From an uncultured Bacilli bacterium (lineage in GTDB: Bacteria > Bacillota_I > Bacilli_A > RF39 > UBA660): a DNA stretch of 64,000 nt. This document shows, piece after piece, positions 22,116 to 51,588 of the stretch. How positions within the stretch are numbered: the stretch's first letter is position 1; every line of letters starts with the position of its first letter. A model generated the notes under the pieces. It did no database searches and was not told the DNA's origin. It was given only the letters and a program-made list of their open reading frames with translations. A program made the position numbers and the translations under genes. The DNA is taken from positions 124,001 to 188,000 of the forward strand of contig CANRAH010000001.1 of NCBI GenBank assembly GCA_947628565.1, in the 5' to 3' direction.

Positions 22116-24410
22116 ATGAATAGTGTAAAGTTTGAATCAATGTCATATCCAATGTTTATTCTATTAGTAATTGTTATATGTTTAATTATATTTATACTAA
22201 TAATTGAACCTAGAATTTCTAAGAGGAAATTAACTAATAAAAATGAACATGGAAGTAGTAAATTTGCAAATTTTAAAGAAATAAAAAATAATTTTATTAA
22301 AGAATCTTTAGAAAATATAAATAAAGTCGGTTTTCCAGTTTGGTATGAAAAAATAAATGGTAAATTTGAAAATGTATATTTTGATACAAAATCACCACAT
22401 TACCTTTTAGTAGGTTCAACAGGAAGTGGTAAATCTGTTACAGTAAGTATTCCAGTAAGTATTCATTTTGCTACTGCAAAAGAAAAACATTCAGTAGTAT
22501 TAACAGATCCTAAAGGAGAACTTTTTAAAACAACAGGTAAAATATTCAAAGAAAATGGATATGATGTTGTTACGATAGATTTTAGAAATCCTACATTATC
22601 TACAAAAGTTAATGTTATGGATCCAATCATAGATGAATGGGTAGAACATTGTCATTATAATAAATGTATGATGTTTTTTTTATCTCATTTTCTTAAAATA
22701 AATAAAATATCTTTGAAAAAAATAAGTAATGATAAAAAATATGAAGAACAAATAAAAAATAAGTTTTTACTTGATAACTATATGATAGATATAATTAAAA
22801 GTAATAAAGAAGAATTAGAAAAAAATATAAAAAATAAAAAATTATATGAATTTAATGAATTAGAAGAATTAAAAAAATTAGATATTAAAGAGTATTTAGA
22901 AAGTAAGGATAATGAATATATATTAAATCTCATTAAAGATAATCAAAATGAAAGTGCTAAACATCAAGCTGAGGCAAATAGATTAGTTATTTCTTTAGCA
23001 AATTTAATCTTTGTAGAAAAGAACACAAAAGATCCTTTTTGGATAAATGCTTCAAGGCAACTTTTTATTGGTATTGTTGGTATATTTTTAGAGGATTATA
23101 AACTAGGTTTAATAGATAAAAATAAAATAAATATATCTAGCATTAAAAAATTTCAAAATTCATCACTTATTAAAGAAAATCAAAATTATCTTCAAAGAAA
23201 TTTAAATTCCAGACCATATGGAACATTATCAAAGGATTATTTAACATCAATAATTTCTGCTGCTGAAAACACATATAAATCCATAACTGCGGTATTTGGA
23301 GAAAAGATGTCTATATTTGATGACTTAAATGTAGAAAATATTACAAGTGTTAGTGAATTTAAATTTACAGATATTGGTAAAAAACCAACTGCATTATATA
23401 TAATTGTACCAGATGAAGATAGAGCATATTTTCAATTAGTAACAATTATTATTGGAATGTTAATTAAGGATTTAACCAAATTTGCAAATTTAAAAGAGAA
23501 TAATGGAACACTACCAGTAAAGGTAGAATGGATATTGGATGAGTTTGCTAACTGTCCACCACTGGATGCTATTGAAACTGTGGTATCTGTTGCAAGAAGT
23601 AGAGGAATGAGATTTTATTTCTTTATACAATCTTTCTCACAATTAGATCAAGTATATGGGAAAGAAATAGCAAACATAATTCAAGATAACTGTGCTTTAG
23701 TTTATTTAAAAACTAATACAGTAGAGACTGCTGAGATAATAGTAAAGAAGTTAGGTAAATCTACAATAGAAACTAATTCTATTAGTATGAATACAGATCC
23801 ATTTAAAATAGGTGCTAATCAAACAACTTCATTAATGGGTAAAGAATTACTAACTGCAAATGAAATAATTAATTTAAAATATAAAACTATAATCTTCCCC
23901 ACATTTGGGAATCCTATATTTAGAGATACATATTTGTATAGTGATTTATACCCTAAATATAAGAATTATCCTGTTTGTGAAAGGGAAACAAAAATCTTAA
24001 AGAGATTAACTGAAAACTATTATACGGTAGAAAAATTAAGAGAAAATTATGAGAGTGTATCTAGTGAGAGTATTAGACAAGTAACTAAGAGAATGGAACA
24101 AACATTTAATAAGAACGCAACGAATGTAATAAATAAAATTAAGCATGAAGTAGAAAGTGGTGCAAATAAAGATTTATTATTATTTATTCAATTATTAAGG
24201 AATCATTTTAAAGATAGAATTTTAAATGAAACTAAAACGAATGATGATGTTTATTTTATTGAATTATCTAATTTAATGAATAAATTTGAATTGGCTAAAC
24301 TAAGGAGAAATAAAGATAAAAATATTGTTTTAGAAATAGCGGAAAACTATAAATTAAAGAAAACAATTATAAGTGTATGGAATGAAATGGAAGTGGATAG
24401 AGAAATATGA
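22116..24410 (+). CDS. VirD4/TraG-type coupling ATPase
   Basis: 764 residues. An N-terminal hydrophobic segment (about 9-29) anchors it. Walker A GSTGSGKS is at residues 100-107, and Walker B with DEFAN near 474-479 sits in VEWILDEFANCPPLDAIE, a TraG/VirD4 signature. Coupling proteins bring the relaxase-DNA complex to the secretion channel. An insert of about 130 residues (roughly 165-290, Lys/Glu-rich) separates the motifs. The last 150 residues are helical. Its TGA stop overlaps the ATG of the sortase-like gene. Confidence 0.9.
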   Translation: MNSVKFESMSYPMFILLVIVICLIIFILIIEPRISKRKLTNKNEHGSSKFANFKEIKNNFIKESLENINKVGFPVWYEKINGKFENVYFDTKSPHYLLVGSTGSGKSVTVSIPVSIHFATAKEKHSVVLTDPKGELFKTTGKIFKENGYDVVTIDFRNPTLSTKVNVMDPIIDEWVEHCHYNKCMMFFLSHFLKINKISLKKISNDKKYEEQIKNKFLLDNYMIDIIKSNKEELEKNIKNKKLYEFNELEELKKLDIKEYLESKDNEYILNLIKDNQNESAKHQAEANRLVISLANLIFVEKNTKDPFWINASRQLFIGIVGIFLEDYKLGLIDKNKINISSIKKFQNSSLIKENQNYLQRNLNSRPYGTLSKDYLTSIISAAENTYKSITAVFGEKMSIFDDLNVENITSVSEFKFTDIGKKPTALYIIVPDEDRAYFQLVTIIIGMLIKDLTKFANLKENNGTLPVKVEWILDEFANCPPLDAIETVVSVARSRGMRFYFFIQSFSQLDQVYGKEIANIIQDNCALVYLKTNTVETAEIIVKKLGKSTIETNSISMNTDPFKIGANQTTSLMGKELLTANEIINLKYKTIIFPTFGNPIFRDTYLYSDLYPKYKNYPVCERETKILKRLTENYYTVEKLRENYESVSSESIRQVTKRMEQTFNKNATNVINKIKHEVESGANKDLLLFIQLLRNHFKDRILNETKTNDDVYFIELSNLMNKFELAKLRRNKDKNIVLEIAENYKLKKTIISVWNEMEVDREI

Positions 24411-25018
24411 TAAAAAAATTATCAATAATATTAATAATGTTATCTTTTTTGATAGCATTATTATTTTTTTTATATACATATATATCAAATAAAAAAATTG
24501 AAAAAAACATAAATGAATATATAGAACAAACAAGTGTTATAGAAAACGAAGAACAAAATGAAATTGTTGAAGTTCAGGATGATGATAAAGAAGAAACAAA
24601 AAAGAAAACTTTAAATTATAAAGCAATAATAGAAATACCTTCTATAAATTTGAAACAAGGTATAGTTGATGTAACAAAGAATTTTAATTCACTATATTAT
24701 GCGGTAAGTGCTGATAGTTCTAGTAATTATCCAGATGAAGTGGGGAATTTTATTTTATATGCTCACTCAGGGAATTGTAATTATTGTTATTTTAAAAAAT
24801 TAAAAAATGTTGAGGAAGGTGATACAGTTTATATCTATTATAATGGTGTAAAATACCATTATGAAATTTATGATATATATAATATTGATAAAACAGGAAA
24901 AGCAGGTGTTATAAGAACTGATACAGAACACTATGTAACACTAATAACTTGTTTGCAAGGAACAAATGATAAACAAGTTGTATATATTGGAAAATTAGTA
25001 GATTCAACTAATTATTAA
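24407..25018 (+). CDS. Sortase-family protein with Lys at the usual Arg position
   Basis: 203 residues. One N-terminal hydrophobic segment (about 5-25) and an acidic linker precede a sortase domain. His120 lies in LYAHSGN and Cys182 in VTLITC, the expected catalytic pair. The catalytic Arg that usually follows by about 7-9 residues appears replaced: the stretch is LQGTNDKQVV with Lys189. Sortases join surface proteins to peptidoglycan or polymerise pili. On an ICE it may anchor adhesins for mating. It overlaps virD4 by 4 bases. Confidence 0.75.
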   Translation: MIKKLSIILIMLSFLIALLFFLYTYISNKKIEKNINEYIEQTSVIENEEQNEIVEVQDDDKEETKKKTLNYKAIIEIPSINLKQGIVDVTKNFNSLYYAVSADSSSNYPDEVGNFILYAHSGNCNYCYFKKLKNVEEGDTVYIYYNGVKYHYEIYDIYNIDKTGKAGVIRTDTEHYVTLITCLQGTNDKQVVYIGKLVDSTNY

Positions 25019-25334: not shown

Positions 25335-27323
25335 ATGATATTAAATGTTATAAGGGAGAGTGAATATACAGATAATAATACTATTGAATCAAATATCACT
25401 AATGATGAAAAAGTTGATAAAGTTCAATTAAAAAAAATTAAATCATTGATTGATGAAAGTCAGTTAAGATATGTATCTGAAAATGTTAGACATCTACTTG
25501 GAATAAAAAAGGAAAATGATAAAACTTGCTTTGATAAGCAACCTAAAGTAATAAAAAAGGTAGTTCAAGCCGGAGAAAAGTTTAGAGTTATTCTTTATAT
25601 TCGATTATCGCAAGAAGATGGAGACCTGGAAATAGGAGATGTTTCAGGTAGTATCAAAAATCAATTACTTTATTTACTTGATGAGTGTAGAAAAAGAGAT
25701 TGGATTGTAGTAGGTATTTTTTGCGAAGAAGATATCAGTGGTTGTGATGATAATAGACCAGAATGGTTAAAATCTATTCGATTTGCAGAAGTAGGAAATA
25801 CTGAAATAGTTTTATGTAAATCACAATCAAGATTTACTCGTAGTATGGAAATGGTTGAAAAATATTTACATACTTGTTTTCCTGAATGGAATGTTCGTTT
25901 CTTAGGATTAGTTGATAATGCAGATACAGATGTTGTTGAAAACAAAAAACAAAGACAAATAACTGGATTAACAAATGAATGGTTTGTAGAAGATACATCA
26001 AAAAGTACAAGGGCATCATTAAATTCTATGAAAAGGAATGGACAATTTACAGGTAGTTTTGCTCCATATGGTTATATAATAGATCCAAACGATAAACATC
26101 ATTTATTATCAGATCCATATGCGAGAGGTGCTATACAAATTATGGCAGGTATGTTAAAACACGGAAAGTCGATCAAATCTATAATCGAGGTGTTAATGAG
26201 AAAAAGATATTTGACACCTGCTGATTATAAAACTGCTCAAGGAAGTAAGATTTGTCGTGGTAAAAATCGTATAACTAAAGTAAATTATCAAGTAGAAGAA
26301 GGAGATACATTACAATCTATTGCAAACAAATTTTATATTACAAAAGAAGAGATAAAGCAAAACAATAATTTGGAAACAAATAAAGTAAAAGTAGGAGATG
26401 TTTTGGTACTTCCATATAGACAGAGATGGACTGCAAAAATGATAAAAACAATTTTAACTGATGAGACACAAATTGGTACACTAGTTCAAGGAAAGACAGA
26501 AAGGACAAGTTTTAAAAATAAGAAACCTATTCAAAAGTCAAAGGAAGAATGGATAAGAGTACCACATTGTCATGAGGCAAATTTGGATTTACAAACTTTT
26601 GAAACAGTAAGTGCTATGTTTAAAGATGGCAAAAATACAAGAAACTATCCACAAGCAAATGGAGAATTACCTTTGTTCAGTAAAAAGGTTTATTGTTCTT
26701 GCTGTGGAAAGACATTTAGCAAAAGTTATGTTCATTTAAAATCAGGAGACAAGATTTATTTAAAATGCAGAGGTTGTACAAATACATTAGGAAAAATTTG
26801 TGATAATACTGCTAGTGTAAATTTTCAGGATTTTAAAGAATATATATTAGATGCTATAAAAGAAAAAATTAGTGACTATTTTGATAAAACGAAATTAAGC
26901 AAAGAATATTATTTGCAAAATGTATATGAAAATATAGACAATGATATTAACGAAAAAGAAAAGATAAAGCTAAATACAGAAAATGAAATTCAAAAAAAGA
27001 AAAATATTTTAGTGCAATTATATAGTGATAAGGCATCAGGAACATTATCTTTAGAAGAATTTATGATAATAAAGAACAGTAATACTTTAGAAATAGAAAG
27101 ATTAGAAAATAGATTATCCGAATTAAATACTGATATAACTAATTTAAATTTAGAAAAGGCTAAACAAGTAGATAAAGAGGAAATATTTAATAAGTATAAA
27201 AATATTACTGACTTAAATAAAACTGTATTAGATGCTTTTATAGATAGAATTGAGATTGGAAAGAAAAACTTGGAAGATTCTACTAGATCTATTGATATAA
27301 AATGGAATTTGTATACTGCTTAA
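25335..27323 (+). CDS. Large serine recombinase with an internal LysM domain (ICE integrase)
   Basis: 662 residues. An unusual N-terminal extension of about 80 residues precedes the resolvase domain, whose nucleophile is Ser92 in YIRLSQEDG. The recombinase domain follows (SFAPYGYIIDP near 233-243). Residues 316-361 form a LysM motif (NYQVEEGDTLQSIANKF ... VKVGDVLVLPY), inserted where other integrases have a plain linker. Then come a recombinase-type segment, a zinc ribbon with Cys pairs (CSCCGKTF, CRGCTN), and a coiled coil (about 525-610). Such enzymes integrate and excise mobile elements at short att sites. It is the last element gene. Confidence 0.88.
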   Translation: MILNVIRESEYTDNNTIESNITNDEKVDKVQLKKIKSLIDESQLRYVSENVRHLLGIKKENDKTCFDKQPKVIKKVVQAGEKFRVILYIRLSQEDGDLEIGDVSGSIKNQLLYLLDECRKRDWIVVGIFCEEDISGCDDNRPEWLKSIRFAEVGNTEIVLCKSQSRFTRSMEMVEKYLHTCFPEWNVRFLGLVDNADTDVVENKKQRQITGLTNEWFVEDTSKSTRASLNSMKRNGQFTGSFAPYGYIIDPNDKHHLLSDPYARGAIQIMAGMLKHGKSIKSIIEVLMRKRYLTPADYKTAQGSKICRGKNRITKVNYQVEEGDTLQSIANKFYITKEEIKQNNNLETNKVKVGDVLVLPYRQRWTAKMIKTILTDETQIGTLVQGKTERTSFKNKKPIQKSKEEWIRVPHCHEANLDLQTFETVSAMFKDGKNTRNYPQANGELPLFSKKVYCSCCGKTFSKSYVHLKSGDKIYLKCRGCTNTLGKICDNTASVNFQDFKEYILDAIKEKISDYFDKTKLSKEYYLQNVYENIDNDINEKEKIKLNTENEIQKKKNILVQLYSDKASGTLSLEEFMIIKNSNTLEIERLENRLSELNTDITNLNLEKAKQVDKEEIFNKYKNITDLNKTVLDAFIDRIEIGKKNLEDSTRSIDIKWNLYTA

Positions 27324-27403
27324 TTATGTAAAACCTTTATTTATATGTCTGGTTTACCACCGAAGGAAAGAATTGCGTCTTTATTCTTTTAGGGGGGGGT
27401 ACC
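27324..27403. other. Probable right attachment region (attR) of the ICE
   Basis: This 80-base gap lies between the integrase stop and the pilin-like frame. It includes a hairpin (AAAGAA near 27367 with TTCTTT near 27384) and an eight-G tract (27392-27399). Serine integrases cross over at a central dinucleotide, often GG-like, and the other element in this window also has a G-rich core. The crossover point cannot be fixed without the left end. Confidence 0.45.
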
Positions 27404-29059
27404 TTATTAAATAAAAAAGGATTCACATTAGTAGAACTACTTTCTGTAATAGTAATACTAGGAATAATAGCTTTAATAGCAGTACCACAAATATTAAATG
27501 TTATAGAAGAATCAAGATTATCAAGTTTAAAATTAAGTACAAAAAATTATATAAGAGCAGTAGAAACTGCAATAGTAGCTCAAAGAGTAGATAATAAAGT
27601 TAAAGATGGGTTATATACAATAGATAAAAAAGGAAAAGTAATAACATTAGACGGATATAATATAAATATAGATTTTGATGGAAATAGTATAGAAAGTGGT
27701 ATGCTTTTAATAGAAGAAGGAAAAGTAAAAAGAATAATAAAAGGTAAGATAAAAGACTATTATGCCAGAATAGAACAAGACGAAATAAAATTATATAAAA
27801 ATATAGATATGAGTATATTATTTGCAGGATCAAAATTTAGTACAGGTATAAAAAAATTAGTTAATAAAAAAGATTTTAATCAATGGGATTCAGATGATTT
27901 AGTAGAACACATTGTCTTTTTACCAGAGGGATTACTACCAGAAGAATATACAAAAGAAGAATTAGAGGCTATGGAAAGTGTAGTAGTATCAGAAGATGGA
28001 AAAACAAAAGCATATTATGATGGAGCTGGTACTGTATACATATTAAGTGATAATATAATATCGGTTAATAAAGATAGTGGTCTTATGTTTATCTCGTTTA
28101 AATCATTAAAAGATATAACATTTAATTTATTAGATACTAGTATATCAACTAATATGGGTTGGATGTTTTGTGGTTGTTCAAATTTACTTGAATTAGATTT
28201 AAGTAATTTTAATACAAAAAATGTAACATCTATGAGAGAAATGTTTAATGGTTGCTCCAATTTGATAGATCTTGATGTAAGTAAATTTGATACAACAAGT
28301 GTAATAGATATGTATTATATGTTTAAGAACTGTTCCAGTTTAAAAGAATTAAATTTAAGCAGTTTTAATACTTTAAAAGCAACAAATATGGATAATATGT
28401 TTGCAAATTGTAAAAATTTAAAAAAATTAGATTTAAGTAGTTTTAATACATCAAAAACAACAAATATGGGAGGCATGTTTTCTGGCTGTTCCAGTTTAAC
28501 AGAACTAAATTTGGATAGTTTTGATACTTCAAAAGTAACAACTATGGCTGGAATGTTTAGTAACTGTACAAGTTTAACAGAACTAAATTTAAATAGTTTT
28601 AATATAGAAAGTGTAACAAATATGGATAATATGTTTTCTGGTTGTAAAAGTTTAACTGACTTAAATTTAAGTAGTTTTAATACAGAAAGTGTAACAAATA
28701 TGCATTCAATGTTTTCTGGCTGTTCCAGTTTAACAGACTTAAATTTAAGTAATTTTAATACAAAAAATGTAAAAAATATGGAGGCAATGTTTTATGGATG
28801 CACAAATTTAAAACAGTTAGATTTAAGTAATTTTGATACATTGAATGTAACAACAATATATGCTATGTTTTATGGATGTCAAGGTTTAAAACTTATTGAT
28901 TTAAGAAATGCTGATTTTACACAAATTAAAACTTTTGGTTATATGTTTTATAGTTTTTCAACTGATGCAACTATAATAGTTAAAGATCAAACAAGTAAAG
29001 AATGGATGGAAGCACGATTAAATGAACAAAATAAAACGGCAACAGTAGTTATAGCTTAA
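27404..29059 (+). CDS. Type IV pilin-like N-terminus fused to BspA-type leucine-rich repeats
   Basis: About 551 residues. The start carries a prepilin methylation/cleavage motif (NKKGFTLVELL followed by a hydrophobic helix), near 27410-27500. The middle is unrecognised. From about 28090 there are some ten DUF285/BspA-like repeats of 23-24 residues with the pattern MxxMFxGCxSLxxLxLSxFNT. Such repeats occur on surface adhesins of gut Firmicutes and trichomonads. No ATG, GTG or TTG precedes the pilin motif in the open frame (from 27332); TTA 27404/27407 sits behind the G tract. The true start may have been cut off by ICE insertion. Confidence 0.75.
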   Translation, partial: LLNKKGFTLVELLSVIVILGIIALIAVPQILNVIEESRLSSLKLSTKNYIRAVETAIVAQRVDNKVKDGLYTIDKKGKVITLDGYNINIDFDGNSIESGMLLIEEGKVKRIIKGKIKDYYARIEQDEIKLYKNIDMSILFAGSKFSTGIKKLVNKKDFNQWDSDDLVEHIVFLPEGLLPEEYTKEELEAMESVVVSEDGKTKAYYDGAGTVYILSDNIISVNKDSGLMFISFKSLKDITFNLLDTSISTNMGWMFCGCSNLLELDLSNFNTKNVTSMREMFNGCSNLIDLDVSKFDTTSVIDMYYMFKNCSSLKELNLSSFNTLKATNMDNMFANCKNLKKLDLSSFNTSKTTNMGGMFSGCSSLTELNLDSFDTSKVTTMAGMFSNCTSLTELNLNSFNIESVTNMDNMFSGCKSLTDLNLSSFNTESVTNMHSMFSGCSSLTDLNLSNFNTKNVKNMEAMFYGCTNLKQLDLSNFDTLNVTTIYAMFYGCQGLKLIDLRNADFTQIKTFGYMFYSFSTDATIIVKDQTSKEWMEARLNEQNKTATVVIA

Positions 29060-29137: not shown

Positions 29138-30328
29138 ATGGATATTATTATGCACATAGATGTTAATAATGCCTTTCTTTCTTGGACAGCAGTAGATTTA
29201 CTTAATAAAGGTTATAAAATTGATATAAGAAATATAGAATCCATAATAGGCGGAGATGAATCTAAAAGAAGGGGTATTGTGTTTGCTAAAAGTATGGTTG
29301 CCAAAAGAAAAGGTGTCAAAACAGCTGAAACTATAAGGGAAGCTAAAAGAAAATGTTATGACTTAAAAGTATTTCCACCCAACCATGCACTTTACAAGGA
29401 GATGTCTAATAAATTGTTCAATCTTATTAGTAAATATACACCCGATATAGAAAAACTTAGTATAGATGAATGTTTTATAGATTATACCAAAATAAAAAAT
29501 TTATATGGAGATCCTATAAAATTTGCATATAAATTAAAGCGTGAAATAAAACTTACTTTAGGTTTTACAGTTAATATAGGTATTGCTAATAATAAATTAT
29601 GTGCGAAAATGGCATCAGATTTTTTAAAACCGGATAGAGTTCATACTTTATTTCAAAACGAAGTTGAAAAGAAGATGTATCCTCTTGCTATAGAAGAATT
29701 ATATGGAGTGGGAAAAAGTACCAGTAAAAAATTGAGAGAACTTAAAATAAATACTATAGGGGATCTTGCAAATTCTGATTTTAATATGTTATATAAATAT
29801 TTTAAAAATCAAACTAAAAGATTAATAGAAAGTGCAAAAGGGATAGATAATGGCGCTATTATGATAAGAAAAAAAGAAACTGAAGGAATAAGCAATAGCA
29901 CTACTACTAGCCATAATTTAAATAGTTTGGATGAAATATATAAATATTTATATCCATTAGTAGAAAATGTAAGTACATCTTTAAGAAAAAAAAATAAATA
30001 CGCGAATCAAGTAGGGGTAGTATTAAAGGATAAAAAATTTAGAATGTATTCACATCAAAGAAAACTTAATAACGCAACGAACAATACAGATGAAATATTT
30101 AGTGTAGCAAAAGAATTAATAAAAGAGTTATGGAATGAGGAAGGAATAAGATTAGTGGGAGTATCTTTAAATAAGTTATCCAGTGAGGTTAATCATCAAA
30201 TTTCTTTATTTGAAGATGTTGCAGTTACAAAAAATAATAATGAACTTGATAAAATTATAGATAAATTAAAGGAAACCTATGGCAATAATATCGTTATAAG
30301 AGCTTCATCAATAAAAAAAGATAAATGA
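29138..30328 (+). CDS. dinB: DNA polymerase IV (Y family)
   Basis: 396 residues. The N-terminal MHIDVNNAFLSW holds the first catalytic Asp, and LSIDECFIDYT near residues 106-116 supplies the second acidic pair. IGIANNKLCAKMASDFLKPD and the HhH-like LYGVGKSTSKKL follow, then a little-finger domain. The length is normal for DinB. It performs translesion synthesis. GGTGAT precedes the ATG. It is a different branch from the ICE-borne polymerase at 15454 and appears chromosomal. Confidence 0.88.
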   Translation: MDIIMHIDVNNAFLSWTAVDLLNKGYKIDIRNIESIIGGDESKRRGIVFAKSMVAKRKGVKTAETIREAKRKCYDLKVFPPNHALYKEMSNKLFNLISKYTPDIEKLSIDECFIDYTKIKNLYGDPIKFAYKLKREIKLTLGFTVNIGIANNKLCAKMASDFLKPDRVHTLFQNEVEKKMYPLAIEELYGVGKSTSKKLRELKINTIGDLANSDFNMLYKYFKNQTKRLIESAKGIDNGAIMIRKKETEGISNSTTTSHNLNSLDEIYKYLYPLVENVSTSLRKKNKYANQVGVVLKDKKFRMYSHQRKLNNATNNTDEIFSVAKELIKELWNEEGIRLVGVSLNKLSSEVNHQISLFEDVAVTKNNNELDKIIDKLKETYGNNIVIRASSIKKDK

Positions 30329-50031: not shown

Positions 50032-51588
50032 ATGAATAATAGTTTTAATGTAGGACTTTATATAAGATTATCAAGAGATGATGGAAATATAGAATCTGAT
50101 AGTATTGTAAGTCAAAGAAGTTTGCTTAAAAGATATATTAAAGAAAATAATTATAGTTTAATAGAAGAATATGTTGATGATGGATTTACAGGGACTAATT
50201 TTGAAAGGCCAGCATTTAAAAAAATGATTAAAGATATTGAACTTGGTAAAATAAATATGATTATTACAAAAGATATGTCAAGATTAGGTAGAGATTATAT
50301 TGGAACTGGTGAACTTATTGAAAAATATTTTCCAAATAACAATGTAAGATATATAGCAATTAATGATGGAATAGATACATTCATAGATAATACTAATAAT
50401 GATATAGCACCATTTAAAGCCATAATGAATGATATGTATGCAAAAGATATTTCTAAAAAGGTTAAAACTAGCTTACATTCAAGAATGAAAGATGGTTTAT
50501 ATGTATCTGGTAGATGTCCTTTTGGCTATATGAAAGATCCTAATAATAAAAATCATCTAATAATAAATGAAGAACAAGCTAAGACTGTTAGGCTAATATT
50601 TTCTTTAGCACTTAAAGGAAATACCTATCATTATATTGCCGATGAATTAACAAAACGAAAAATTAAAACACCTGCATCTTACTACAATTATGTTTGGAAT
50701 ACAAAGTGTAGTAGCAAATGTGTTTCACAGGAACAAGGTGTATGGGTTGATACAACAATAAAATCAATATTAATTAATCAAATTTATGTAGGTGACTCAG
50801 TTCAAGGAAAAACTAAAAAGATAAATTATAAACTTAAAAAGACAGTTAAAAATAATCCTAATGATTATATTATTGTTGAAAATACACATGAAGCAATTAT
50901 TGATAGGGATACTTTTGAGTTTGTTCAAACACTCCTTCCTAAAAATGTAAAAAGGCCAGAAAAGAAAAGATTTTATTTACTAGATGGACTTTTATATTGT
51001 GGAGATTGTAAACATAGAATAACAATAAGATATCAAAATAAGACAGGTAGAAGTTATACTACTTGTGATTATTATAGAACATATTCTAAGTATCATGTAT
51101 GTACAACTCATACTAATAATTATGAAATACTTGAAAAAATCATTTTAGATAATATTAAGGATGTATGTAGAAAATATTTAGATAAAAATAAAATAAAAAA
51201 TTCTATTGAAAATATAACTTTTGAAGATAATAGTTTAATCCTAAAAAAACAAATTGAAAGTCTAGAAGTAATCAACAACAAATTAACAGAAAATTTAGAT
51301 AAAACTTATATGGATATGTTAAAAGGTATATTAGACGAATCACAATATTTAAGAATCGGCGAAACCATAAAAAGAGAAATAGAAAACAATAAATCAAGTA
51401 TTGATAATCTAAAAAATGAACAAATAGATTCAAGCAAAATGGATAATAAAAAACTAGAAAAATCTATTGATAAATTTTTATCAATAGAAAATCCAACTCG
51501 AGAATTAATAATAAATTTAGTTGAAAAGATCTATATCTATCAAGATAAGAGGGTAGATGTTATATTTACATTTAAAAATACTACATAA
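50032..51588 (+). CDS. Large serine recombinase (TndX/CcrB-like) of the small element
   Basis: 518 residues. The resolvase domain begins VGLYIRLSRDDGN with nucleophile Ser14, and ITKDMSRLGRD and the recombinase domain (GRCPFGYMKDPNNKNHL) follow. A zinc ribbon (CGDCKHRI, then CDYYRTYSKYHVC) and a coiled coil (about 395-470) complete the usual large-serine-recombinase layout. It presumably inserted and can excise the element at the AGGG core. It lacks the N-terminal extension and LysM insert of the ICE recombinase. Confidence 0.9.
   Translation: MNNSFNVGLYIRLSRDDGNIESDSIVSQRSLLKRYIKENNYSLIEEYVDDGFTGTNFERPAFKKMIKDIELGKINMIITKDMSRLGRDYIGTGELIEKYFPNNNVRYIAINDGIDTFIDNTNNDIAPFKAIMNDMYAKDISKKVKTSLHSRMKDGLYVSGRCPFGYMKDPNNKNHLIINEEQAKTVRLIFSLALKGNTYHYIADELTKRKIKTPASYYNYVWNTKCSSKCVSQEQGVWVDTTIKSILINQIYVGDSVQGKTKKINYKLKKTVKNNPNDYIIVENTHEAIIDRDTFEFVQTLLPKNVKRPEKKRFYLLDGLLYCGDCKHRITIRYQNKTGRSYTTCDYYRTYSKYHVCTTHTNNYEILEKIILDNIKDVCRKYLDKNKIKNSIENITFEDNSLILKKQIESLEVINNKLTENLDKTYMDMLKGILDESQYLRIGETIKREIENNKSSIDNLKNEQIDSSKMDNKKLEKSIDKFLSIENPTRELIINLVEKIYIYQDKRVDVIFTFKNTT

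Follow-up and report, generated by a model that had tools for sequence, protein, structure and literature searches.

How does a gene for a pilin-like surface protein come to stand in a genome without a start codon? In the window (the whole stretch of 64,000 nucleotides analyzed here, positions 124,001 to 188,000 of a contig that we call C1), a pilin-BspA frame is open from 27332 to 29059, over 575 codons. Its first ATG, GTG or TTG is the ATG at 27701, deep within the protein. The codon before an NKKGFTLVELL-type motif usually encodes methionine in pilin genes; here it is TTA (27407-27409). The frame matches the N_methyl family (PF07963, 27.9 bits against a cut-off of 21.2) and DUF285 (203.5 bits). 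We assign the start-less body (27400 to 29059, + strand; PF07963, TIGR02532, PF03382, TIGR02167) to the type IV prepilins with BspA/PARCEL repeats, because the GFxxxE N-methylation motif and the DUF285 repeats are both present. Processing of the product by a prepilin peptidase and its assembly into a fibre are putative. A sequence-only reading of the locus had described a pilin frame with no normal start beside a G8 tract, and the codons just listed confirm this. An in-frame ATT before the G tract was considered as an alternative pilin start and rejected, as it has no Shine-Dalgarno sequence.

The G8 tract (27392-27399, + strand) is the only run of seven or more Gs within the window, and it begins 68 nt after the stop of an integrase gene at 27323. 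Shuffling of the window gives 0.25 expected G7 matches; two overlapping matches are observed, a number reached in 4 out of 100 shuffles. Genome-wide, there are 6 runs of G8 or longer compared to ~1.7 expected by a first-order estimate, and 16 runs of G6 or longer compared to ~57 expected, shorter runs being rarer than expected. Taken alone, the tract is mildly improbable and the genome's excess of G8 or longer runs is modest. The meaning of the tract comes from its homologues.

To locate the missing 5' part, we scanned the window's own genome for runs of six or more Gs. On the same contig and strand, 54 kb leftward (C1:97541), we found a TATAAT box, a GAAGG Shine-Dalgarno sequence, an ATG, 6-7 leader codons and a G9 tract (C1:97541-97549), followed by TAATGGAACATTGACAC and no pilin. 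A paralogue on another contig (C22) has the same promoter and leader, then a G10 tract, then the pilin body, uninterrupted. Through the last G of the tract, C1:97.5 kb and C22 share 66 of 68 positions, and the window's pilin body, aligned from the tract over 1,670 nt, has 87% identity to C22. A single pilin-BspA gene is thus divided between the opposite ends of a 53,842-bp element (C1:97550-151391), with the G9 tract as the left junction and the G8 tract as the right junction (attR). The absence of a start codon from the pilin frame is explained by this ICE-like element, which interrupts the leader within its G tract.

The flanking ZIP, ATPase and dinB genes have no homologues on contig C22, which is therefore a second locus rather than the empty site. 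Information on the host locus comes from genus relatives. For two of these (G002 and G009), the left-flank ATPase-ZIP genes adjoin the right-flank dinB gene (DNA polymerase IV-like; 29138 to 30328 in the window, + strand), with neither pilin nor element between them. For the other 13 of the 15 relatives, no dinB occurred within the short stretch examined beside the left-flank genes, and no empty site with the pilin in place at the ZIP-dinB locus was found among the 15. Three observations support the suggestion that an ICE had inserted at the 5' end of the gene: the left junction at a distance of 54 kb, the C22 paralogue and the flank synteny. That junction had been proposed as a check, and the assembly itself supplied it, with promoter, Shine-Dalgarno sequence, ATG and leader. 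We consider it about 90% probable that an ICE-like element, by means of a large serine recombinase (LSR) of a clade using poly-G tracts as attB, entered a phase-switch-like tract and so split an adhesin gene.

The window contains the right half of the element (1 to 27391, + strand); the left end lies outside it. Genes on the + strand encode the C-terminal part of a VirB4-like conjugal transfer ATPase (62 to 1252; NF045975 at 341 bits, below the cut-off of 590, and PF19044 over its cut-off), a VirD4-like coupling protein (T4CP, 22116 to 24410; NF045973 at 264 bits, over the cut-off of 250), an element-borne sortase (24407 to 25018; TIGR01076 over cut-off) and the LSR (25335 to 27323). The right arm, one half of attP (27360 to 27391, + strand), repeats the left arm (C1:97550) imperfectly and in inverted orientation. 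Channel-type proteins were matched below the NCBIfam cut-offs, and further products include an M23 peptidase, a primase-type protein and a zeta-toxin-like protein. An integrase at one end, defined junctions, and T4CP and VirB4-type genes, all expected of an ICE, are present. No relaxase was recognized among the element proteins scanned, which covered part of the small ORFs and included some proteins that received no assignment, and we therefore call the element ICE-like. The first gene inside its left end encodes a C-5 cytosine methylase (L103:11690-12637). Besides the sortase, the element carries a surface protein of its own with thioester and SpaA domains (L104:11004-13346). Elsewhere in the window, a second serine recombinase (50032-51588) is distant from that of the ICE (27-29% identity) and has LysM-like stretches close to it (C1:172845-175872).

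Four domains of the LSR, resolvase, recombinase, zinc ribbon and DUF4368 (PF00239, PF07508, PF13408 and PF14287), score over their cut-offs. By these domains, and by the location of close relatives at different target genes (L144 and L145, below), the LSR is of the multi-targeting (DUF4368) kind, and recombination activity at poly-G sites is predicted. A LysM domain, normally peptidoglycan-binding, lies inside the protein (26286-26414, residues 318-360) and is conserved both in the poly-G clade and in an amidase-targeting sister clade. In a structure model of modest quality (mean pLDDT 65, pTM 0.44), this domain forms a strand-helix-helix-strand unit with pLDDT of about 84-89. The best match of the LSR among solved structures is TnpX.

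A scan of GTDB genomes with the window's LSR returned 18 loci. A maximum-likelihood tree built from 29 recombinases groups the window's LSR with L139 to L148 in a single clade (support 100/100). Two later additions outside that tree, L277 and L278, are at 68-70% identity. Sister recombinases, at 46-48% identity, belong to elements that end in the HGG motif of an amidase-like gene. This end occurs in L149/L162, L150, L158, L160, L161 and L281 and is absent in L159; an Amidase_3 domain was confirmed for L160 only. The genus genomes hold only distant LSR homologues (best 45%), IMG/VR holds a single relative at 28%, and the phage collection gave none at an E-value of 1e-60. All genomes are metagenome-assembled. 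One contig with a poly-G-clade recombinase (L148, CANQZY010000119.1) is in a bin labelled Methanobrevibacter, which is probably bin contamination.

The poly-G position of the right end is found across the clade. Among the 12 non-duplicate members with a readable right end, 10 have this end at a tract of G7-G10, about 50-75 nt past the LSR (L139, L140, L141, L142, L143, L144, L145 and L148, at 52-73% identity, together with L277 and the window). In this count, L157, L279 and L280 were left out as duplicates of L140, L143 and L146, respectively, and L146 was omitted since the contig breaks off within its LSR. The LSRs of L139 and L140, from two genomes, are almost identical and were counted as two; counted as one, the result is 9 of 11. 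The two other members are exceptions. In L278, the right end is a G9 about 205 nt past the recombinase; a G+C-rich stretch and a hairpin-like repeat lie between the LSR and this G9, as if something had inserted at the end. In L147, the tract is broken by a 1.95-kb transposase-bearing insertion sequence (PF05598/PF13751) that stands between GGGAGGGA and TGGAGGGGGGG-TATCATGATA; TGGAGGGGGGG-TATCATGATA is the -10 side of the genome's own promoters. Two element ends share a transposon-like end, GACTGACCGAAAATT, that borders directly on the G tract (L147:3827-5779, and L143 from 3403); in L147, this end delimits the transposase gene by which the tract is broken.

The ten genomes of L139-L148 contain 12 to 37 runs of G7 or longer each. 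Because there are so few such runs in 1.1-1.5 Mb, chance is no serious explanation of the poly-G right ends. Two of the elements, L144 and L145, have LSRs identical in protein sequence and identical element ends, which stand at G10 and G7, respectively, with different genes downstream. The elements also have a common gene order: a coupling protein and an adjoining sortase precede the LSR at the right ends of L140, L141, L142 and L145, as in the window.

Seven left ends likewise begin at a tract, of G7-G12: the window's, those in G423, G420 and G428, and three in G426. The host side is readable at six of them. Five have TTGAC[ACT] 1-10 nt before the tract, and the sixth is the window's leader. 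The C-5 cytosine methylase gene recurs inside the left ends L260 (G423), L239 (G428), L271 (G420) and L274 (G426). In G423, a single contig contains the two ends at a distance of 54 kb, the left reading TTGACA-N10-G7 and the right G8-TATAATTAACACATAG. Intact homologues in G424 read TTGACA-N10-G9-TATAATTAACGCATAG, a promoter without interruption. The G423 element thus sits between predicted -35 and -10 boxes.

We also compared the two arms within elements. For the window's element, the 25 positions adjoining the tract include 15 that match as an inverted repeat, a number reached in 91 of 20,000 shuffles. Over 32 positions, the window has 15 matches, G423 has 19 and G420 has 20, compared to 10-12 in mismatched pairs that involve the window and 16-18 between the two similar elements. 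Left ends for the elements of L140, L141 and L143 were not found in the tract stretches read or by pattern search. The pattern search spanned seven genomes and gave matches in three of these. The G7 or longer tracts read comprised all or nearly all of those in G421, G424 and G428, 13 loci of at most 37 tracts in G422, and three tracts each in G420 and G427. One candidate left end for the L141 element (L192) was rejected: it is an ordinary TTGACA-G8-TATAAT promoter and, by eye, its arm does not mirror the right end. The element end of L139/L140 has TTGACA two bases before the tract, like native promoters of G420. Some ends may therefore replace the lost -35 box; other ends lack this sequence.

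What do these tracts do in the host? Runs of G8 or longer occur in 11 of the 16 genomes of the genus, with up to 41 per genome. We sampled 31 distinct tracts from loci found by scanning for G runs, so these are not every tract in the genus. Nearly half (15 out of 31) have a -35-like and a -10-like box on either side, and 12 out of 31 have a prepilin motif within 180 nt. For seven other genomes, 36 of 51 tracts have a promoter-like setting, compared to 6.3% of random positions (731 of 11,600). This set includes a few element junctions; two tracts at contig ends were skipped, and G429 (a mixed-looking bin), G425 and G426 were left out. Judged from these boxes, the targeted tracts mostly lie between -35 and -10 boxes, and the leader type (the window and C22) is a second form. 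Another prepilin gene of the window's own genome (L071, G000:C21:181-189) has the promoter-spacer form, with a TTGACA-type box, a G10 tract and a TAGAAT-type box upstream.

Tract lengths differ among homologous copies. The predicted placement of the tracts is the architecture of slippage-driven phase variation, from which we infer switching itself, that is, changes in tract length and in expression. In this host family, slippage in promoter-spacer or leader tracts would switch the expression of surface proteins. The sequence-only reading had offered a G tract of variable length as an alternative to the insertion. The part concerning the switch finds support at the level of architecture, with homologous tracts in leaders and promoter spacers throughout the genus and the family, but the two do not compete, since the ICE entered the tract.

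The tract and the missing start could also be explained in other ways. The element end might supply a phase-variable start of its own: a possible TTG start (27373 to 27375, + strand) has AAGGA (27363-27367) five bases ahead as a Shine-Dalgarno sequence, transcription could read through from the integrase gene, and reading from this TTG crosses the tract into the pilin in one of three length registers. We regard this as unlikely, because at the assembled length the TTG is out of frame with the pilin and because it falls in the recombinase arm, where the Shine-Dalgarno match may be due to chance. On the sequence as assembled, the pilin-BspA gene is presently split and most likely silent unless this TTG is used.

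That the poly-G is merely the element's own terminal sequence, at an arbitrary target, would agree with the seven or more Gs at both junctions, of which the element probably brings some. However, the tract is already present in target homologues that have no insertion (C22 and the promoters of G424, G420 and G428), and on the host sides the sequence at the tract is organized as a promoter or a leader. We rejected a terminal signature alone on the basis of these homologues and consider it very improbable. The genomes are metagenome-assembled and the contigs of several relatives end at or near G tracts, so unrelated contigs might have been joined at a G run. Runs of 8-9 Gs are, however, short for assembly words, and independent genomes show this arrangement again. 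A single contig spans both ends in the window's genome (G000) and in G423, and G002 and G009 have the two flanks side by side; we give such a mis-assembly hardly any credence. Least credible of all is a decaying pseudogene that lost its start by mutation. It would fit the absence of a usable in-frame start, but we rejected simple decay because the left junction holds the missing 5' part intact, and the body is open over all its codons.

In the reading that we favour, the LSR integrated the 54-kb element into the poly-G tract in the leader of the prepilin-BspA adhesin. The promoter, Shine-Dalgarno sequence, ATG and leader remained at the left junction, and the body remained at the right junction without a start; excision would rebuild the gene. 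A poly-G core in attP probably recombines with the host tract as attB. LSRs exchange strands at a central dinucleotide. Both junctions carry at least seven Gs, native tracts here often have about 9-11, and the two junctions sum to 17 Gs in the window and 15 in G423. These sums suggest that attP brings several Gs of its own. We further propose that, because a GG crossover in two G runs can be aligned in several registers, integration and excision could change tract length.

Tentatively, and at odds that we would put below even, the recombinase may have evolved toward hypermutable poly-G switches. Integration and excision would then form a slower switch over slippage and reset the tract length, the -35 box of some ends would take over the promoter, and the element would steer host adhesins. 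Since the host has to retain its switches, the element family would not run out of landing sites.

Like Tn4451 (TnpX) and Tn5397 (TndX), this is an LSR-driven mobile element of Gram-positive anaerobes. For elements of that type, the core dinucleotide has been reported as GA, and we know of no G-tract target. DUF4368 marks a clade of multi-targeting LSRs (Durrant et al. 2022, PMC10083194), and the LSRs described there share with ours this domain and the occurrence of close recombinases at several target genes. Motifs described in that work are T/A-rich (TT core), or A-rich with an AA core and a T-rich side, whereas the common feature here is a G run in switch-like regions. In sortase pili of Bifidobacterium breve, also a gut commensal, expression is reportedly governed by the length of a G tract inside a pilus gene (PMC9187656). 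No mobile element takes part in that case; the tract described here stands ahead of a type IV prepilin and is also a site of insertion. A promoter G tract also alters expression of porA in Neisseria (PMC3639595), in the promoter-spacer position seen here; porA is in a Gram-negative pathogen, and the account cited describes no recombinase that targets the tract. Finally, the SPbeta prophage splits spsM in Bacillus subtilis, and precise excision rebuilds the gene during sporulation (PMC4191935). Here, too, an integrated element splits a gene, but instead of SPbeta's single described site there are many sites of one kind, at which excision would act similarly. No report of an LSR or ICE targeting poly-G or phase-variable tracts was recognized in our literature search, which took in few subscription papers and no bioRxiv preprints.

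The targeting of poly-G tracts is a new target specificity within a known, multi-targeting kind of LSR. It is a naturally occurring example of a recombinase clade linked to a homopolymer, and its natural attachment sites can be used in laboratory tests, for which the amidase-gene sister clade provides a clean comparison of shifts in recombinase specificity. Insertion at the poly-G tract explains the start-less adhesin gene. Contingency loci are usually studied as self-contained switches. A family of mobile elements appears to dock at the switch sequence itself; horizontal transfer would in this way be linked to surface variation in uncultured gut Bacilli.
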